A DNA stretch of 64,000 nt from Parcubacteria group bacterium ADurb.Bin192 (GTDB taxonomy: Bacteria; Patescibacteriota; Patescibacteriia; 2-12-FULL-60-25): positions 1 through 64,000 of the forward strand of contig MWCR01000004.1 in the NCBI GenBank assembly GCA_002070095.1, read 5' to 3'. Position 1 is the stretch's first letter. Each line of letters starts with the position of its first letter. A program made the translations under genes and the position numbers. Shown here in pieces: positions 15,285-57,736 of the stretch. Below the pieces are notes generated by a model that saw only the letters and a list, made by a program, of their open reading frames with translations, was not told where the DNA came from and did no database searches.

Positions 15285-17975
15285 ATGGACAAAGAGGAAA
15301 GCAATAAATATTCCATCAAAAAGGAGGTCGTTCCTGCGGGAACGAATGATTTTGAATCTAAAATCTTTTCAGTGCTGGAACGCGACGGGGCTGTTTTATC
15401 AACCCCGCGCGGCCTGAAAAAAAGAGCTTTTCATCGCAAGCCGCAAATTGCTAAAAAAGACAGAGCGGCCGTTTTCAGGTCAACCATTACTTCGAACGTT
15501 GAGGATAATGTCGAATGTTTGGATATGGAGTCCGTGGCTTGTGTGGTTAAAAGGCATGAGTCGCCGGAAGAGTGTTTAGTGAGTATAAAACGAAAGAATC
15601 ATAATCGGAGTCCTTTTGTTATTTCTTTGCGAGAGTGTGTCTTGGCGCCCGAGCACACAGTTCAAGAAAGAGTTCATTTGGCTGATCAGACGGCTTATCA
15701 TGATTCTTTGGCCGCCAACAAAAACGGTTCTTACCAATCATTGTCCGAAGCCGCCTTGCGCTCCAAGGTTGCTCCGGTTGATTTACGAAGTCAGGCAAAT
15801 AAACCTTCGGCTTGGTCTGTTATGGCCTTGAACGGACGTCTTTTGGCGCGCGGTGCCGGCCGTATAGCGCGTAAATTTAAACGATTTTTTATTAAAGAGG
15901 CGGAGTACATCGATAGACAGCAAAAAATCATAATTCCCAAACTGGAGCGTGAGTATGCCGAGGCGGCCGAAGAAGTCGTGTCAGGAAAAAGTTTTTCTTA
16001 TGGCAAAACAGCGGTTGGTTTTTTGGTGCTGATTTTTTTGATAACTTTGCCGGCACAGGCCTTGGTGGTCTATCGGGGCATGACTGACGAGAAAGGTGAA
16101 TTTGAATCACAAGGCAGAGAGGCGGTGGAATCTTTGAGCGGTTTGCAGGCCATGGATTTGAATGTTTCTTTACAACAGCTGCATCAGGCATCGGCCAAGT
16201 TTAAAGAAGCGGATCGTTTGCTGGATGAGTCACGTTTTTTGGCCGTAGGCGCCGCGGCCGTAGTGCCAAAACAATATCGCAGCGCGCGTTCTTTGCTTGA
16301 AGTGGGCAACAAAATGAGCCAAGCCGGTCAGTTGTTAGCCATGGGTTTTGGCAAGGTATTTGATGATCCTGACAGGAGTTTGATGGAAAGACTGGAGGTC
16401 ATGAGGACTTATTCTTTGGGAGCTTTGCCCTTATTGACCGACGCTCAAAACGCGGCCCAAAAAATAGATATCTCTTCCATACCTGAAGAGCAAAAAGAAA
16501 ATGCCAAATTATTACCGGATAAAATAGGTCAGGCCAAAGAGTCTGTCCGTGAATTGGCTATCATTACGGAGGCCTTGACCGCATTTTTAGGAAAAAATGA
16601 GAGTCGTAATTATTTATTGATTTTTCAAAATCAAACCGAACTGCGGCCCACGGGCGGATTTATGGGGTCTTTGGCTGAAATAAGCTTAGAGAATGGCAGG
16701 ATAACGTCCATTAAAGTACCAAAAGGCGGCCCTTATGATTTAAAGGGCCAGCTCATGGCCAGGGTTTTACCTCCCAAACCTTTGCAGTTGATTAATTCTC
16801 TTTGGCAGTTTCAAGATGCCAACTGGTTCCCTGATTTTTATAAAACAGCCCTCAAGATCCGTTGGTTTTGGAGCAAGTCCGGCCAGCCTACCATTGACGG
16901 AGTGATTGCCGTCAACTCGGGTTTCATGGAAAAGATTTTGGAAGTGACCGGGCCGGTAAGTCTGCCTGAATATAACAAGGTGATAACCGCTGAAAATTTT
17001 TTGCTGGAAACGCAAAAAGCGGTGGAGCTGGAATATGACAAAGAGGCTAATACTCCTAAAAAATTTATCGGAGATTTATTTGAAGTTCTCATGGAAAGAT
17101 CCAAGGGTTTTGATGCCAATCAGTGGCTGTCCTTGGCTTCGGCCGACAGTCAGGCTTTGGAAACCAAGGATATTCAGATCGCCATGTTCAGGCCCGAAGA
17201 AGAGGAATTGGTGGAGCGTTTTGGGTGGCAGGGCAAACTTAAGTCCGCCGCCGGAGATTCTTTGGCGGTTATCGGGGCTAATATTGCCGGTCAAAAAACA
17301 GACGGAGTCGTCAAGGAGGTCGTGGATCATGTGGCTGAAATTCAAACTGACGGCAGTATTATCGACACGTTCAGGTTGACCCGCGTTCATCAGGGAGTTA
17401 AAGGAGAGTTGTTCAGGGGCGTCAGAAATGTGCAGTATCTTAGAATTTACGTGCCCAAGGGTTCTGAAATTTTGGCCGCTCAAGGTTTTGATCCGCCGGC
17501 CACAGATTTGTATAAAGAAGTTTTGGAAACGGACAGGCCGGATGCCGATCTGTTAGTCATAGAAAATACTTCCAAGCCGGCCATGAACAGTGTCTGGACA
17601 GCGGACGAAGATGACCGCACGGTTTTTGGGGGTTGGCTGCAATTGGATCCCGGTCAAACACAAGAAATAATTGTGCGTTATAAACTGCCGTTTACGGTTT
17701 ACGATATCATGGATCGGGTGCAGGAAAGCGCCGGTCAGTCGGTTGAGCAAAGAACCCGGGGTGCTTATCTGATGCTTTTAACCTCTCAATCCGGCAAGGT
17801 GCGTGATTTAAACCATGAGGTGCGTTTGGCTGCGCCCTGGCAAACCATCTGGACCCGCGGGCAGATCGGTTCGTCGTCACAGCAGGCTTCGGCGGGATGG
17901 AAGGGTGTTTGGGACCGAGACCAGGCCGTAGCTTCCTTATTATCTAGAAACACGGAGCATGAACAAGAAAGATAA
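15285..17975 (+). CDS. DUF4012 domain membrane protein
   Basis: An 896-residue protein. The first 240 residues are polar and predicted cytoplasmic, a transmembrane helix lies near 243-263 (VGFLVLIFLITLPAQALVVY), and the rest is predicted extracellular. The region around residues 440-640, with NYLLIFQNQTELRPTGGFMGS, is the DUF4012 signature common in Patescibacteria and Gram-positive actinobacteria near glycan genes. A strong AAGGAGG overlaps the upstream stop codon. The gene overlaps the next by 17 bases. It probably works with the neighbouring glycosyltransferase in building or anchoring surface polymer; that is inferred from context only. Confidence 0.85.
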   Translation: MDKEESNKYSIKKEVVPAGTNDFESKIFSVLERDGAVLSTPRGLKKRAFHRKPQIAKKDRAAVFRSTITSNVEDNVECLDMESVACVVKRHESPEECLVSIKRKNHNRSPFVISLRECVLAPEHTVQERVHLADQTAYHDSLAANKNGSYQSLSEAALRSKVAPVDLRSQANKPSAWSVMALNGRLLARGAGRIARKFKRFFIKEAEYIDRQQKIIIPKLEREYAEAAEEVVSGKSFSYGKTAVGFLVLIFLITLPAQALVVYRGMTDEKGEFESQGREAVESLSGLQAMDLNVSLQQLHQASAKFKEADRLLDESRFLAVGAAAVVPKQYRSARSLLEVGNKMSQAGQLLAMGFGKVFDDPDRSLMERLEVMRTYSLGALPLLTDAQNAAQKIDISSIPEEQKENAKLLPDKIGQAKESVRELAIITEALTAFLGKNESRNYLLIFQNQTELRPTGGFMGSLAEISLENGRITSIKVPKGGPYDLKGQLMARVLPPKPLQLINSLWQFQDANWFPDFYKTALKIRWFWSKSGQPTIDGVIAVNSGFMEKILEVTGPVSLPEYNKVITAENFLLETQKAVELEYDKEANTPKKFIGDLFEVLMERSKGFDANQWLSLASADSQALETKDIQIAMFRPEEEELVERFGWQGKLKSAAGDSLAVIGANIAGQKTDGVVKEVVDHVAEIQTDGSIIDTFRLTRVHQGVKGELFRGVRNVQYLRIYVPKGSEILAAQGFDPPATDLYKEVLETDRPDADLLVIENTSKPAMNSVWTADEDDRTVFGGWLQLDPGQTQEIIVRYKLPFTVYDIMDRVQESAGQSVEQRTRGAYLMLLTSQSGKVRDLNHEVRLAAPWQTIWTRGQIGSSSQQASAGWKGVWDRDQAVASLLSRNTEHEQER

Positions 17976-19884
17976 AAAAACTCCTTGGCAAAAACTTTCC
18001 GGAGTTAAAGATTCTTTCATTAAGCGCGACAAAGAGGTTGAACAAAGTTTGCGTACCATTTACGCCTCCGGAGAGGATGATAATTTGCCTGATCTGACCA
18101 AATTGGAACCCAAGAAAAGTTACCGCTGGCTGATCGCGGCTTTGGTTGTTCCGCTGATCGTGTTGATTTTATGTGTGGTGGCCTGGTCGGGTTTTTGGTT
18201 TTTTAAATCATTCAGCGGTTTTTCGGGCAAGGGCTTGGTGATCACCATAGAAGGTCCCAATCAAATTTCTTTGGGGCAAGAGACGACTTATTTTATCAAT
18301 TATCAGAATCCCTTACGTGAGCCTTTGTTGAATGTGGAAATAAGAGCTAACTTTCCGGCCGATTTTGTGCCGACCTCCGTGACTCCGCAGATTAATGACA
18401 AGGTTCTAATCTGGAAGATCGGATCTTTGGCCGCCGAACAAAGAGGTACGATTACGGTCAAGGGCAGATTTACCGGTTCTTTGGGCACTTTATCGGCCGT
18501 TCAGGCCGTGGGCACTTATCGCCCTTCGAGTTATTCCAGCAACTTTGAGACCATGTCCACCAAGCAGATTTCTTATGCGGATACGGTCCTGGAGGGTTCG
18601 ATTCAAACCCCGGAAAAAGCTGTTCCCGGAGATAACACGACCATTGTGTACAAACTGGCCAATAAGGGGAGAGATGTTTTGGATAATATTGAGGTTAGAA
18701 TTTTATTGCCTGAAGGTTTCTCTTTAAACAGCACGTCAAGCGCTTTGGGTAAAATTGATGGACGTAATTATATTTTAAATTTCGAGACTTTGGAGGCCGG
18801 CAGTTCAACCGATATTATTTTGTCCGGTGTTTTCGCTTCGGGTTTTGGCGGTCAGGCTCACGTGGAGGCCCGGGCCGGAAATGTCAGCCGGGATGGTGCT
18901 TTTATGCCGGCTCAAATTTCCGAAGCTTCTTTTCCGGTTTTAGCCGGCGATCTGTCTTTGAAGATGGTGGTTAACGGCACTGATCATGCCGAGAGAAGCG
19001 TGGGCTATGGCGAAGTGTTATTGTGTGCCATCGGTTATGAAAACATGGCGGATGAGTCGCTTAAAAATGTAACCATCAGCGTGCATTTGGATACGGTAAA
19101 TTTGAATGAACCGGGTAAATACATTAAACAGCCTTTGGTAGACTGGGATAAATATCAAAATACTTCGAGTTCCACCAGAACGGATCAGATACTGACTTGG
19201 ACGGCGGGTAATGTTAAAGGCTTGGAAGAAATCGTGACTCGGGCGGATGACTCATTGGAGTTTGCCTTGCCTTTAATAACCACGGCTTCCGCGGGGAGTG
19301 ATTCTTTGGCTTTGAAGGCCACGGTTTTCGCCACCATTGAAGGCATCGGTGAAACCAAAATGAAGCGCACCATTCAGATGGCTCCCATGATATTCAAATT
19401 GCGTACGGATGCCGCCTTGAGTTCAGAAGTCAGATATTTTTCGGAAGAGGGCGCTCCGCTCGGATCCGGCCCTTTGCCTCCCAAGGTTGGGGAATCAACC
19501 GTTTATCGAGTCTCCTGGAATTTGAGTAAAAATATTCACGCCTTGAAAGATTTGGACGTGTCCGCTGTTTTGCCGCGTAATGTTTCTTTTGTGGGCGCGG
19601 TTACCAGTTCAGCCGGTGAATTGAATTTTGATAAAAATACACGTTTAGTTTCCTGGAAGCTGAATCGCATGCCCGATAATATCAGCTCGTCTTACATGGA
19701 GTTTGATATTGAGCTGACGCCCGTGGCCACGGATGACGGCAAGTTTGTGGACTTGATCGGCGACACCACCTTCCAGGCTTACGACGAAAATATCAAAGAA
19801 AACATTATTCAAGTCATCAAGCCCTTGAATACTGATTTGCAAAACGACGAAGGCGCTCAAGGCAAAGGAGTGGTGAGGAAATAG
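17959..19884 (+). CDS. Membrane-anchored surface protein with repeated beta domains
   Basis: A 641-residue protein. After about 55 charged cytoplasmic residues there is one transmembrane helix (about 57-85), then a long extracellular region of at least four DUF11/Ig-like repeats. Typical phrases are NIEVRILLPEGFSLNSTSS, LLNVEIRANFPADFVPTSV and DLDVSAVLPRNVSFVGAV, each a statement-like strand pair followed by an ILTWTAG or VSWKLN strand. The start overlaps the DUF4012 gene, so it is translated in the same operon. Its likely role is a cell-surface structural or adhesive protein; no catalytic motif is visible. Confidence 0.8.
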   Translation: MNKKDKKTPWQKLSGVKDSFIKRDKEVEQSLRTIYASGEDDNLPDLTKLEPKKSYRWLIAALVVPLIVLILCVVAWSGFWFFKSFSGFSGKGLVITIEGPNQISLGQETTYFINYQNPLREPLLNVEIRANFPADFVPTSVTPQINDKVLIWKIGSLAAEQRGTITVKGRFTGSLGTLSAVQAVGTYRPSSYSSNFETMSTKQISYADTVLEGSIQTPEKAVPGDNTTIVYKLANKGRDVLDNIEVRILLPEGFSLNSTSSALGKIDGRNYILNFETLEAGSSTDIILSGVFASGFGGQAHVEARAGNVSRDGAFMPAQISEASFPVLAGDLSLKMVVNGTDHAERSVGYGEVLLCAIGYENMADESLKNVTISVHLDTVNLNEPGKYIKQPLVDWDKYQNTSSSTRTDQILTWTAGNVKGLEEIVTRADDSLEFALPLITTASAGSDSLALKATVFATIEGIGETKMKRTIQMAPMIFKLRTDAALSSEVRYFSEEGAPLGSGPLPPKVGESTVYRVSWNLSKNIHALKDLDVSAVLPRNVSFVGAVTSSAGELNFDKNTRLVSWKLNRMPDNISSSYMEFDIELTPVATDDGKFVDLIGDTTFQAYDENIKENIIQVIKPLNTDLQNDEGAQGKGVVRK

Positions 19885-19971: not shown

Positions 19972-19997
19972 AAAAAAAGATCAATAGATCTTTTTTT
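19972..19997. terminator. Symmetric terminator
   Basis: AAAAAAAGATC/GATCTTTTTTT perfect stem with an AATA loop. It can end the surface operon rightward and the candidate ncRNA at 20164 leftward. Confidence 0.85.
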
Positions 19998-20164
19998 GTT
20001 GGTCGGTATCAGTCCGCGGAGCATCAAGTCTTATGAATTAGAGGTTCACAAGAACTCAAAGATCGGAAGCAGATTTTCGAGGAGAGAGATTATCCCAACG
20101 ATTAAGCCGGGATGAAAATTCGTTTCTCGTCTTCGAGCAGCTCCGCGGACTGATAACGGCCAAT
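19991..20164 (-). ncRNA. Candidate structured ncRNA with 22-bp closing stem
   Basis: Complementary arms at 20001-20022 and 20140-20161 form a closing stem of about 22 bp with one mismatch, around a core TATCAGTCCGCGGAGC. Inside, on the minus strand, are smaller stems: ATCCC/GGGAT nested within ATTTTC/GAAAAT, a CTCG/CGAG hairpin and a GTTC/GAAC hairpin. A TTGCCA-N17-TAACAT promoter would start transcription right at the 5' arm, and the terminator at 19972-19997 follows the 3' arm. No open reading frame fits. I cannot match it to 6S, SRP, tmRNA or RNase P. The strand is inferred from promoter and terminator placement. Confidence 0.55.
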
Positions 20165-20170
20165 ATATTC

Positions 20171-20199
20171 ATGTTAATCGCAATACTTTGATTTGGCAA
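20171..20199 (-). promoter_or_regulatory. Promoter of candidate ncRNA
   Basis: Minus strand TTGCCA (20194-20199), 17-base spacer, TAACAT (20171-20176), predicted start near 20164. It overlaps the 3' end of the small gene at 20174-20347. Confidence 0.5.
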
Positions 20200-20347
20200 T
20201 TCGCTTACCTCTTAGAGATTCCGTGCGAGACAGAAGCTCATTTGAGGCGAGCGTGTCGATGGGTCGGCCGCAGTCGCAAACGGACTTGACAACGCGCAAT
20301 GGGGTTTTGGTCTTGGTATCGCTTTTCTGCGCTTTTTCGCTACCCAT
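20174..20347 (-). CDS. 57-residue SD-led protein with CxCG motif
   Basis: A small basic protein (start MGSEKAQKSDTK, end AKSKYCD) with a CDCGRPID motif in the middle and one further cysteine near the C-terminus. The three cysteines could hold a metal, but this is a guess. The gene call rests on a GAGGAGA site just before the ATG at 20347 and on its placement upstream of the ncRNA and terminator. Family unknown. Two hairpins lie in its leader region (20368-20383 and 20403-20424). Confidence 0.5.
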   Translation of the reverse strand: MGSEKAQKSDTKTKTPLRVVKSVCDCGRPIDTLASNELLSRTESLRGKRIAKSKYCD

Positions 20348-20446: not shown

Positions 20447-20582
20447 GAAGCGGGGATGATGCAGAAGAAACTTTTTCATGTAGCATGTAACTTGTAGCAC
20501 GCAACAAAACAATGACAAGCTATTGTTATATGCTACATGCTATGTGCTACATGATTTTCCTCCTCTGCATGATTCCCGCTTC
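20447..20582. repeat. Long imperfect inverted repeat with ATGTAGC arrays
   Basis: Two arms of about 65 bases (GAAGCGGGGATGATGCAG... against ...CTGCATGATTCCCGCTTC) fold into one long hairpin. The inner parts consist of words like CATGTAGC and ATGTAAC. No coding signal is seen. The same words form arrays at 21245-21293 and 57631-57736. Confidence 0.8.
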
Positions 20583-21244: not shown

Positions 21245-21293
21245 ATAGCATGTAGCATGTAACATGTAACATATAGCATGTAACATGTAACAT
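21245..21293. repeat. ATGTAGC/ATGTAAC word array
   Basis: A degenerate tandem array of 8-10 base words (CATGTAGC, ATGTAACA, ATATAGC) between the 89-residue gene and pyrE. It includes a TATGAT near 21241-21246 on the minus strand that might act as a -10. Confidence 0.75.
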
Positions 21294-21312
21294 ATTTTTA
21301 TTGAGTATTTAA

Positions 21313-22092: not shown

Positions 22093-23052
22093 CTATCCAC
22101 GTAGCTGGTTGATGGCTGTATGCAGTTTGAGTGTTTCGCGCCTTGCGGCTTCGGCAAAGTCCGGGCCGTTTGAAGCATAGATTATTCCGCTCGAGCTGTT
22201 GATGATCAGGCCCTGTTGCCAGCTGTCCAGGCCGTTATTGATGACAGTCTGCAGATCGCCGCCTTGCTTGCCGATGCCCGGTACCAGGATGGGCAGGTCG
22301 CCCACCAACTGGCGTACCAGCCGCAGCTCTTTGGGGTAGGTGGCGCCTACCACCAGCGCGCAGTTGCCGTGCTTGTTCCAATGGTGAGCCACGCGCATGG
22401 CCACGACTTGGTAGAGCGGTATGAAGTAGACGGGCTGTCCATCTTGGGTTGTGACCTGCCATTCTCCCCACGTCATCAGATGTTCGTGCCGCAGATCTCG
22501 GAAACCATTCAACAAAACATCCAGCTCGTCGGAGGTTACGCGAGTCAACAGGTCCTGGAACTCGCCCGCGCCCCGGTTACTGGTACGGCACAGCACGACG
22601 ATGCCCTTGTCGGTTCGTTCGAGGAAGGGCTTGTTCGCTTCTTCTCCCAGGTACGGGTTGATGGTGATCGCTTCGGCTTTCATCACATCAAACACGGCCT
22701 TGGCATACGCTTCGTTGGTGGCGCCGATGTCGCCGCGTTTGGCGTCCAGTATCACAGGTGATAGTGGAGCGTTGTACCGTAAGTATTCGACCGCGTGCAG
22801 AAGCGCCCGTGTACCCAAGCTGCTCATGGCCTCGTAGAAGGCGCTGTTCAGTTTGTAAGCACAGGTCAAGTCTTGAGTGGCATTGATGATGCCTATGTTG
22901 AAGTTCATGACCTGAGACAGACTGATGGCCTGTTTTTCCACGTCAGGTGGTCCCAACTTGGGCAATCTTTCAGCGTCCGAGTCCAGCCCCACGCAGACGA
23001 ACTTACCCAGATCCCACTGCCGGCGCAATTTGTTGACGAATTCGCTGGTCAT
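22093..23052 (-). CDS. pyrF: Orotidine 5'-phosphate decarboxylase (long, subfamily 2)
   Basis: A 319-residue enzyme converting OMP to UMP, the last step of UMP synthesis. The substrate-binding start FVCVGLDSDAERLP and the catalytic motif VILDAKRGDIGATNEAYAKAVFD identify the longer PyrF subfamily. The start is set by AAGGAG before the ATG at 23052; the frame stays open upstream without support. It forms an operon with pyrE behind a TTGACA promoter. Codon choice looks more G+C-rich than in the ribosomal genes, so horizontal acquisition is possible but unproven. Confidence 0.93.
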   Translation of the reverse strand: MTSEFVNKLRRQWDLGKFVCVGLDSDAERLPKLGPPDVEKQAISLSQVMNFNIGIINATQDLTCAYKLNSAFYEAMSSLGTRALLHAVEYLRYNAPLSPVILDAKRGDIGATNEAYAKAVFDVMKAEAITINPYLGEEANKPFLERTDKGIVVLCRTSNRGAGEFQDLLTRVTSDELDVLLNGFRDLRHEHLMTWGEWQVTTQDGQPVYFIPLYQVVAMRVAHHWNKHGNCALVVGATYPKELRLVRQLVGDLPILVPGIGKQGGDLQTVINNGLDSWQQGLIINSSSGIIYASNGPDFAEAARRETLKLHTAINQLRG

Positions 23053-23103
23053 GCCTGTCTCCTTGTGAGGTGCGATTACACAGGTTGAGTGCAACTTGCG
23101 CCC

Positions 23104-23132
23104 ATGATGTTGCATGCAGATGACTTTGTCAA
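23104..23132 (-). promoter_or_regulatory. Promoter of pyrF-pyrE
   Basis: Minus strand TTGACA (23127-23132), 17-base spacer, CATCAT (23104-23109), giving a leader of about 45 bases. Confidence 0.55.
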
Positions 23133-23195
23133 TCCATACCATCTCGACAAAAATCGGCATTTCCACTAGACTGCACCTATCAAAATCAATTATCA

Positions 23196-23268
23196 AATTA
23201 ACAAATATAAAATATAAATTACAAAGTACACCCTATTTAATAATTTATATTTGAAATTTGTTAATTAG
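23196..23268. repeat. A/T-rich inverted repeat before tRNA-Arg
   Basis: Arms of about 24 bases (ATTAACAAAT...ATATAAATTA and TAATTTATAT...ATTTGTTAAT) around an 18-base loop. It sits between the pyrF promoter and tRNA-Arg and may contain the tRNA promoter. Confidence 0.6.
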
Positions 23269-56248: not shown

Positions 56249-57637
56249 ATGTCTAGAATCATGAATATTGAAACGCCCCAATATGTGGGGCAAGAAGTCT
56301 TGGTTAAGGGCTGGATTAAAACCAGAAGAAACATGGGTAAATTGGCTTTTTTGGATATGCGTGACCGATCCGGCATCGTGCAGGTGGTTTTGGTGCCAAG
56401 CGAACTATCGGAACGCGCTTTAACTGAATTGGAGGCTCTGCGCCCGGAAGATTGTTTAGCTGTTACGGGAGTGGTTAATAAACGCGGCGGCAAACAGATT
56501 AACCCCAACATGCCGACCGGAGAGGTGGAAATTTTAGCCAAAGACATTGAAGTTTATAATCATGCCGATACTCCGCCGTTTGAGGTTGATCAAGATACGT
56601 CCAATGTTAACGAAGAACTGCGTTTAAAATATCGTTATCTGGATTTACGCACCGAACGTTTGCAAAAAAACATAAATCTTCGCGCTCGCATGATTCAGTC
56701 TTTGCGTAATTTTTTGATAGCTAAAGATTTTACGGAAATCGAAACGCCGACTCTGATTAAGGGCACGCCCGAGGGGTCGCGTGAATATTTGGTGCCTTCT
56801 CGTTTACATGAAGGCAAGTTTTATGTTTTGCCTCAATCCCCGCAACAGTACAAACAGCTGCTCATGGTTGGCGGAATGGAAAAGTATTTTCAGGTAGCCC
56901 GCTGTTATCGCGATGAAGACGCGCGCGGGGATCGTCAGATGGAATTTACGCAGTTGGATTTGGAAATGTCATTTGCGGATCAGGAAGATGTATTGAGTCT
57001 GGTGGAGGAAATGATGGTCTCCATGGTTAAGGAAGTAGTCCCTGACAAGAAGTTAACTTTCAAAAAATTTCCCAGGATTTCTTATCACGAATCCCTGAAC
57101 ACGCACGGCAGTGATAAGCCCGATCTGCGCGAGAACAAACAAGATCCCGACGAGTTGGCTTTTTGCTGGGTGGTGGATTTTCCCATGTTCGAAGTCGGCG
57201 GTGACGGACGTTTGACCACGGCTCATCATCCCTTTTGCATGATTAATCCGGAGGATGAAGGCTTGTTGGAGTCCGAGCCGTTAAAAGTCAGGGCTTGGAG
57301 TTATGATTTGGTTTTGAACGGCTATGAATTGTCTTCGGGCTCGATTCGTATTCACAAGCCTGAAATGCAAAAAAAGATTTTTGACATACTCGGCATGTCG
57401 GAAGATGAAGTGCAGGTCAAATTCGGGCATATGCTGGAAGCGTTTAAGTACGGCGCGCCCCCGCACGGAGGTGCGGCGCCGGGCATAGACAGGCTGGCCA
57501 TGCTTTTGTGCAACGAACCCAATATCCGTGAGGTTATCGCCTTTCCCAAGACCGGCGATGCGCGTGATCCGCTCATGGGCGCGCCTTCCGAGCTACCGTC
57601 CGAGCAAATCGCGGAAGCACATATTAAACTCATGTAG
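56249..57637 (+). CDS. aspS: Aspartyl-tRNA synthetase, compact
   Basis: A 462-residue class IIb synthetase with an N-terminal OB-fold (VLVKGWIKTRRNMGKLAFLDMRDRSGIVQVV). Catalytic motifs include YKQLLMVGGMEKYFQVARCYRDEDARGDRQMEFTQLDLEMSF and the C-terminal HGGAAPGIDRLAMLL. Bacterial AspRS is usually about 590 residues because of an inserted GAD domain. Here DKPDLRENKQDPDELAFCWVVDFPMFE joins the flanks directly, so that insertion is missing. Discriminating and non-discriminating forms cannot be separated by eye; an asnS gene is also present. Its stop codon lies in a repeat. Confidence 0.95.
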   Translation: MSRIMNIETPQYVGQEVLVKGWIKTRRNMGKLAFLDMRDRSGIVQVVLVPSELSERALTELEALRPEDCLAVTGVVNKRGGKQINPNMPTGEVEILAKDIEVYNHADTPPFEVDQDTSNVNEELRLKYRYLDLRTERLQKNINLRARMIQSLRNFLIAKDFTEIETPTLIKGTPEGSREYLVPSRLHEGKFYVLPQSPQQYKQLLMVGGMEKYFQVARCYRDEDARGDRQMEFTQLDLEMSFADQEDVLSLVEEMMVSMVKEVVPDKKLTFKKFPRISYHESLNTHGSDKPDLRENKQDPDELAFCWVVDFPMFEVGGDGRLTTAHHPFCMINPEDEGLLESEPLKVRAWSYDLVLNGYELSSGSIRIHKPEMQKKIFDILGMSEDEVQVKFGHMLEAFKYGAPPHGGAAPGIDRLAMLLCNEPNIREVIAFPKTGDARDPLMGAPSELPSEQIAEAHIKLM

Positions 57638-57736
57638 CACGAAACATGTAACACAAATCAATGAGTCGAAACCAGTTAACGGTTAACCCCAGGTTTGTTG
57701 TTACATGCTACATGCTACATGCTACATGCTACATGA
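57631..57736. repeat. ATGTAGC/ATGTAAC array between aspS and pyrD
   Basis: CATGTAGCACGAAACATGTAACA at the left and four tandem TACATGC units at the right pair as an imperfect hairpin. The aspS TAG stop is within the left arm, and pyrD starts 4 bases after the array. Confidence 0.8.

Follow-up and report, generated by a model that had tools for sequence, protein, structure and literature searches.

A previously uncatalogued structured RNA of Patescibacteria with a conserved unpaired CU tract that may act on Shine-Dalgarno sequences

The window, by which we mean the whole stretch of 64,000 nucleotides that was analysed, contains an intergenic element that likely encodes a minus-strand RNA convergent with a gene for a DUF11 protein. 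The features of the locus on which the analysis draws are the following, P1 to P4 being the helices of the RNA:

15285-17975, plus strand: DUF4012 gene
17959-19884, plus strand: DUF11-protein gene, convergent with the element
19972-19997, both strands: symmetric palindrome of a bidirectional intrinsic terminator, recognised from the sequence
19999-20164, minus strand: ncRNA gene body, its 5' end near 20164 and its 3' arm ending at 19999, supported by the fold (z -10.2), by a match to a model (R2) from whose training the window was left out, and by its being kept in congeners
19999-20022, minus strand: 3' arm of the closing stem P1 (inverted repeat; compensation against G001)
20029-20053, minus strand: extra hairpin P4 of the window member in the minimum free energy (MFE) structure, not present in the folds of G001, G002 and G005
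20054-20078, minus strand: 3' strand of helix P2, directly after the motif (MFE structure and covariation in six members)
20079-20091, minus strand: conserved unpaired bulge AAUCUCUCUCCUC, the putative seed, on the 3' side of the apical hairpin
20092-20113, minus strand: apical hairpin P3, directly 5' of the motif (MFE structure; same position in other members)
20114-20138, minus strand: 5' strand of helix P2 (MFE structure; the innermost 6 pairs covary in a hand-trimmed alignment of six members)
20140-20163, minus strand: 5' arm of the closing stem P1 (inverted repeat; compensation against G001)
20171-20199, minus strand: candidate sigma-70-type promoter, TTGCCA-17-TAACAT, a weak match at 9 of 12 positions
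20174-20347, minus strand: 57-aa frame with a good Shine-Dalgarno sequence
22093-23196, minus strand: pyrF (OMPdecase)

The 251-aa minus-strand gene directly behind pyrF has no Pfam match and is taken for pyrE; after it, on the same strand, comes a 125-aa frame with relatives in congeners. The 57-aa frame resembles a 356-aa zinc-ribbon gene, found at the same place in G003, in its N-terminal part only (PLRVVKSVCDCG), and the second half of the frame falls on another conserved element, at 20205-20259. Both observations point to a probable decayed gene, in which case the ncRNA element would not simply be its 3' tail, and the frame was rejected as a host gene of the element. The second conserved element reads, on the minus strand, CGCTCGCCTCAAMTGAGCTTCTGTC followed by an AGAGGAG-like stretch. 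In congeners it is found again close to genes of the interval from pyrE to the DUF11 gene (L082, 9364-9440 and 10110-10168; L081, 2392-2416; L080, 1175-1200; L083, 8038-8056). One of the L082 copies (G001) immediately precedes a 121-aa gene, the Shine-Dalgarno sequence of which falls within the copy; the second element is possibly a cis-regulatory leader. Dispersed short intergenic palindromic repeats built on CATGTAGCATGTAAC / TGCTACATG are found at 20475-20560, 21250-21310 and 57631-57721 of the window, and in G008 the same region carries clustered direct and inverted repeats of TTGTCTGAACCTTGATT between genes (L087, 4184-4439 and 5885-6143). With respect to the genome as a whole (G000; 69 contigs, 1,441,988 bases, rated 100% complete), ARAGORN reports 50 tRNA genes and no tmRNA. 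Genome sizes close to 1 Mb, together with an S5-SecY interval in which, by our own inference, uL30 has no apparent room, agree with the assignment of this DNA to the Patescibacteria in the preliminary description.

The preliminary description of this DNA had placed 22-bp arms with one mismatch at 20001-20022 and 20140-20161. These arms are real and slightly longer (19999-20022 and 20140-20163), spanning 24 positions and bracketing 117 bases; on the minus-strand RNA they contain two mismatches (A.C and C.U), and the single mismatch holds only if the plus strand is read, where one of the two turns into G.U. When the inverted repeats of the window that span 70-320 bases are ordered by ungapped score, the element comes second, the sole higher-scoring one being an A+T-rich 71-base palindrome. 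The whole element folds on the minus strand at -73.5 kcal/mol. Since long arms fold well on both strands, the interior was also folded alone, giving a z of -4.3 on the minus strand, a value equalled by 1 of 1000 dinucleotide shuffles, and of only -1.7 on the plus strand. On the minus strand the interior thus folds better than chance, and the difference points to this strand as the likely RNA. As to open frames, of which the earlier description saw none, a TTG-started 47-aa frame (20056-20199, minus strand) crosses the 5' part of the element; nothing was found in support of its coding.

Regarding the ends of the transcription unit, the promoter proposed earlier is present and would place the start of transcription near 20164, but it is weak, and matches of such quality are cheap here (5 in 801 bases against 1.3 expected). 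The symmetric terminator that had been described after the 3' arm was found where expected, as the palindrome AAAAAAAGATC-AATA-GATCTTTTTTT, which follows the arm directly and is able to terminate the convergent plus-strand gene as well. It was not listed by a consensus scan, the stem rule of which demands three G-C pairs.

Database searches gave the element no name. Against Rfam (15) it has no match even at E <= 5, in agreement with the earlier remark that it could not be assigned to 6S, SRP, tmRNA or RNase P RNA: it matches none of the SRP RNA, tmRNA and RNase P RNA models, nor does it match a curated Rfam model that would indicate homology to LhrC, RsaE or FsrA. When 17 loci of other members were compared with Rfam, only tRNAs reached the gathering score, the rest being sub-threshold chance matches. 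A BLASTN search with the element gave nothing but chance matches in 56 relatives, phages and plasmids, as did the arm sequence in public collections, where the matches were unrelated. Full-text searches of open-access papers yielded no report of such an RNA or of its motif in a bacterial RNA.

Structural relatives were nevertheless found by means of syntenic alignment and of models, the E-values of which are rough. With model R1, made from the window sequence alone and run with filters off, G001 is recovered at E = 5e-11; the score is 47.4 bits on the RNA strand, compared with 28.6 for the opposite strand. Model R2, built only on G001, G002 and G005, matches G003 (4e-12), G019 (0.009) and G057 and has matches in further families; on the window it scores 2e-4 on the RNA strand and 4e-5 on the opposite strand, which is the better because the arms dominate. 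The alignment of syntenic intervals shows AATCTCTCTCCTCG and a matching long stem to be common to the window and G001, then to G005 and G002, and independent folds of these four sequences give one architecture: a closing stem, a second helix, an apical hairpin and, 3' of the hairpin, a bulge of 12-13 nt that is the shared motif. In four congeners (G001, G002, G003 and G005) the RNA lies at the same locus, convergent to the same DUF11-protein gene, the G003 member carrying a variant motif; in G007 and G008 it is present away from that locus. Within the genus it was thus found in 7 of 9 genomes (G000, G001, G002, G003, G005, G007 and G008).

The G007 and G008 copies imply that the RNA is a gene of its own and not a piece of one operon, and the members from other families likewise sit in other gene contexts. 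These observations bear on the alternative in which the RNA would belong to the minus-strand pyr operon, as its 3'-UTR or as a processing element. Such an origin would fit the position of the RNA after the operon and before the operon terminator in five congeners, as well as the weakness of the window promoter. We nonetheless consider it quite improbable, given the copies elsewhere and the promoter-like sites that occur just upstream of the RNA in 12 of 66 accepted loci (3.4 expected by shuffling; arm ends are noisy there). In 55 of these 66 loci a T-run follows within 150 nt downstream.

A short model of the core (R3) and a search for the exact pattern extended the survey. The exact AAWCTCTCTCCTC is found in 91 of 381 genomes of the class, a lower bound on prevalence, against roughly a dozen for the reversed pattern. 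In family f46, which is not that of the window, it occurs in 19 of the 21 genomes sampled, as read from the survey table, and one candidate (G406) falls outside the class and within the phylum. The R3 matches in G004 (L144), G082 (L151), G623 (L159) and G628 (L161) were rejected as lying inside long frames or having no fold, and the 13-mer matches in G015 (L102) and G012 (L103 and L108) as having no fold. The motif occurs with poor structure in G110, G065, G243, G295, G171, G127, G084, G162, G274 and others.

Base-pair changes among the relatives agree with the predicted helices. Between the window and G001, the closing stem comprises 23 pairs, of which 21 are paired in each sequence and 6 show double compensatory changes; the same U.C mismatch is kept in both. 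In the core helices of six members all 12 pairs show double changes, a count that leans towards structure because the cores were hand-trimmed to it. A larger set (A10) consists of 17 f46 sequences that were aligned by sequence only. Double changes are seen there in 33 of 46 consensus pairs, and 92.5% of cells are paired against 40-44% when the partners are slid by 1-3 positions, a comparison somewhat favoured by the consensus having come from the same alignment; none of 500 shuffles reaches any of these measures. The structured minus-strand ncRNA suggested by the preliminary description accordingly has homologues with compensatory changes, both in the congeners and in another family.

In addition to the helices, relatives scattered through the class have in common an almost unchanging unpaired UCUCUCUCCUC stretch. 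The bulge AAUCUCUCUCCUC is almost invariant while the sequence of the flanking helices varies, and its 11-mer TCTCTCTCCTC occurs in one copy in the genome of the window. At the 66 accepted loci the motif is unpaired in at least 8 of 9 positions. The sense strands of these loci fold with a median z of -4.9 and the opposite strands with one of -3.7, the sense value being the lower in 56. Among the 64 loci found by the pattern only, 42 leave at least 8 of the 9 motif positions unpaired and enclose the motif in 25 pairs or more, compared with 65 of 1200 (5.4%) for control pyrimidine-rich 9-mers of this genome folded alike. The invariance of the motif is partly a matter of ascertainment, because the motif was itself the query of the last survey step. 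Before that step, models or synteny had turned up the variants CUUCUCUCCUC in G003, CUCUCUCCG in G315, CUCUCUCCUU in G168 and UUCUCUCUCCUC in G021, G007 and G008, which give a measure of its drift.

These findings leave scarcely any probability to the notion that the locus is not an RNA at all, being instead the remnant of a mobile element with terminal inverted repeats or a chance palindrome. The 24-bp arms around 117 bases and the failure to find nucleotide relatives would suit a remnant or palindrome, but the structural relatives, the compensatory changes and the invariant unpaired motif contradict it. The element is present in single copy and no target-site duplication was seen, and a MITE was rejected on the same two grounds. 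Also rejected were an integron attC site, since by eye the order of the element ends ATTGG/CCAAC does not fit attC, and a retron msr-msd, no reverse transcriptase having been noticed among the neighbouring frames. Judged from these sequence comparisons, the element almost certainly represents a real RNA family, absent from Rfam and previously uncatalogued. The unpaired bulge and the class-wide distribution are its most informative part, one that was out of reach of the first, sequence-only reading.

The f46 sequences show a long form of the RNA, with conserved closing-helix segments CUGCGAAG/CUUUGCAG and GGUACGA/UCGUG(A/G)C, which the window member does not have. In this form P1 and P2 are separated by an internal loop measuring about 7 x 11 nt. 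The size and overall shape of the long form, together with this loop, recall a 6S-like RNA, an RNA polymerase binder whose long hairpin is imperfect and has a loop at its centre. In favour of this reading, the Rfam 6S model has no match in the genome of the window at E <= 10, with positive controls recovered. A 6S-like role appears improbable, however: the window member and others of the genus have no such loop, a 6S match was obtained in no member, and what is invariant is a bulge on one side, close to the apex.

The bulged closing helix GGUACGA/UCGUGACC and the polypyrimidine tract on the 3' side also invite comparison with a Y-RNA-like particle formed with a Ro60 (TROVE) protein. The D-x-S-G-S-M signature of the vWA domain, used as a motif proxy for TROVE in place of a profile, was found in one long frame in the 1,441,988 bases of this genome, and Pfam assigns that one frame to VWA_CoxE and not to TROVE. 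With no TROVE protein found by this motif proxy, a Y-RNA-like particle is very improbable.

The mechanism that we propose starts from the unpaired tract. The element would be a freestanding regulatory RNA of about 165 nt, its transcription running along the minus strand and stopping at the terminator palindrome at 19972-19997. The helices of this RNA may present the nearly invariant unpaired (A)AUCUCUCUCCUC CU tract as a single-stranded probe. This tract would base-pair in trans with purine-rich Shine-Dalgarno sequences of the (G)AGGAGAGAG or GGAGAGA type, and the pairing would block ribosome binding and thereby repress, or buffer, the translation of a small regulon. The full proposal, a freestanding RNA of a new family whose CU tract represses through Shine-Dalgarno pairing in trans, falls just short of an even chance in our estimation; anti-Shine-Dalgarno pairing as the mechanism, taken by itself, stands somewhat below even.

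The motif is complementary to GAGGAGAGAG. With GGATCACCTCCTTTCT as the 3' end of the 16S rRNA in this genome, the RNA does not duplicate the anti-Shine-Dalgarno sequence. Its complementarity is to those Shine-Dalgarno sequences in which GGAGAGAG follows. Upstream of the gene starts of this genome, which were called crudely, AGGAG continues as AGAG in 7 of 154 cases against 1.4 expected, and this is the commonest continuation. The enrichment is modest and suggestive only, because other purine continuations of AGGAG are raised too (GAGA 5, GAAG 5 and GAGG 4). Five genes carry a 10-nt perfect complement of the motif at -11 to -15; the count of whole complements is not above that of every purine-rich control, the controls being overlapping. 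An action in trans would be in line with the G007 and G008 copies away from the DUF11 locus and with the window locus, where neither strand has a downstream gene for cis control by the element.

Complements of the motif were also observed close to the RNA itself. In G086 (L301) an exact complement, GAGGAGAGAG, lies about 65 nt 5' of the motif and upstream of the RNA, and in G183, G102, G179, G107 and G019 complements of 8-9 nt lie within 250 nt. With lengths of 8-10 nt counted, 9 of the 66 loci have such a complement, compared with 2 when the control is the reversed motif. They could represent an alternative pairing or a neighbouring target.

The chief rival to Shine-Dalgarno pairing is a protein that reads the CU tract, which would explain its conservation equally. 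The bulge would then be the binding site of a sequence-specific RNA-binding protein that recognises the A-run and the CU tract, and the RNA its scaffold or sponge. The strict sequence conservation of an unpaired bulge between variable helices fits this possibility, as do the conserved GGUACGA/UCGUG(A/G)C segments of the long form, which pairing with an mRNA does not require. We regard it as possible but unlikely, since it makes the complementarity to Shine-Dalgarno sequences a coincidence and no candidate protein was identified. If pairing with Shine-Dalgarno sequences is indeed what the RNA does, its anatomy predicts directly which ribosome-binding sites get covered.

To our knowledge, the regulatory RNAs of Patescibacteria are practically unstudied. 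Retention of the element across many families with very reduced genomes, and a motif kept more strictly than its surroundings, point to a basic function. It is conceivable, as a tentative and rather unlikely extension, that the RNA is ancestral in the class and possibly in the phylum and belongs to the core of translation control, either as an anti-Shine-Dalgarno probe or as the core of an unknown RNP, with no studied counterpart.

Among known systems, Y RNA and YrlA resemble the element in the bulged closing helix and the 3'-side polypyrimidine tract, and differ in that there is no Rfam match and no TROVE protein by the motif and Pfam check. 6S RNA (RF00013) is likewise a freestanding, long imperfect hairpin of similar size, but its model is unmatched in the genome and in the members, the window member lacks a central bubble, and what is conserved here is a one-sided CU bulge. 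CU-rich sRNAs that act on Shine-Dalgarno sequences are established in Firmicutes, namely LhrC, RsaE, FsrA and SprD (PMC4132741). The element differs from them in phylum, shows no sequence or Rfam relation to them, and its repression of targets is putative; moreover, their loops are of the UCCC type, whereas here a strict 13-nt AAUCUCUCUCCUC bulge stands beside the apical hairpin of one long closing helix. Like those sRNAs, however, it combines an unpaired CU- or C-rich motif able to pair with the Shine-Dalgarno sequence and a freestanding gene with its terminator (PMC4132741).
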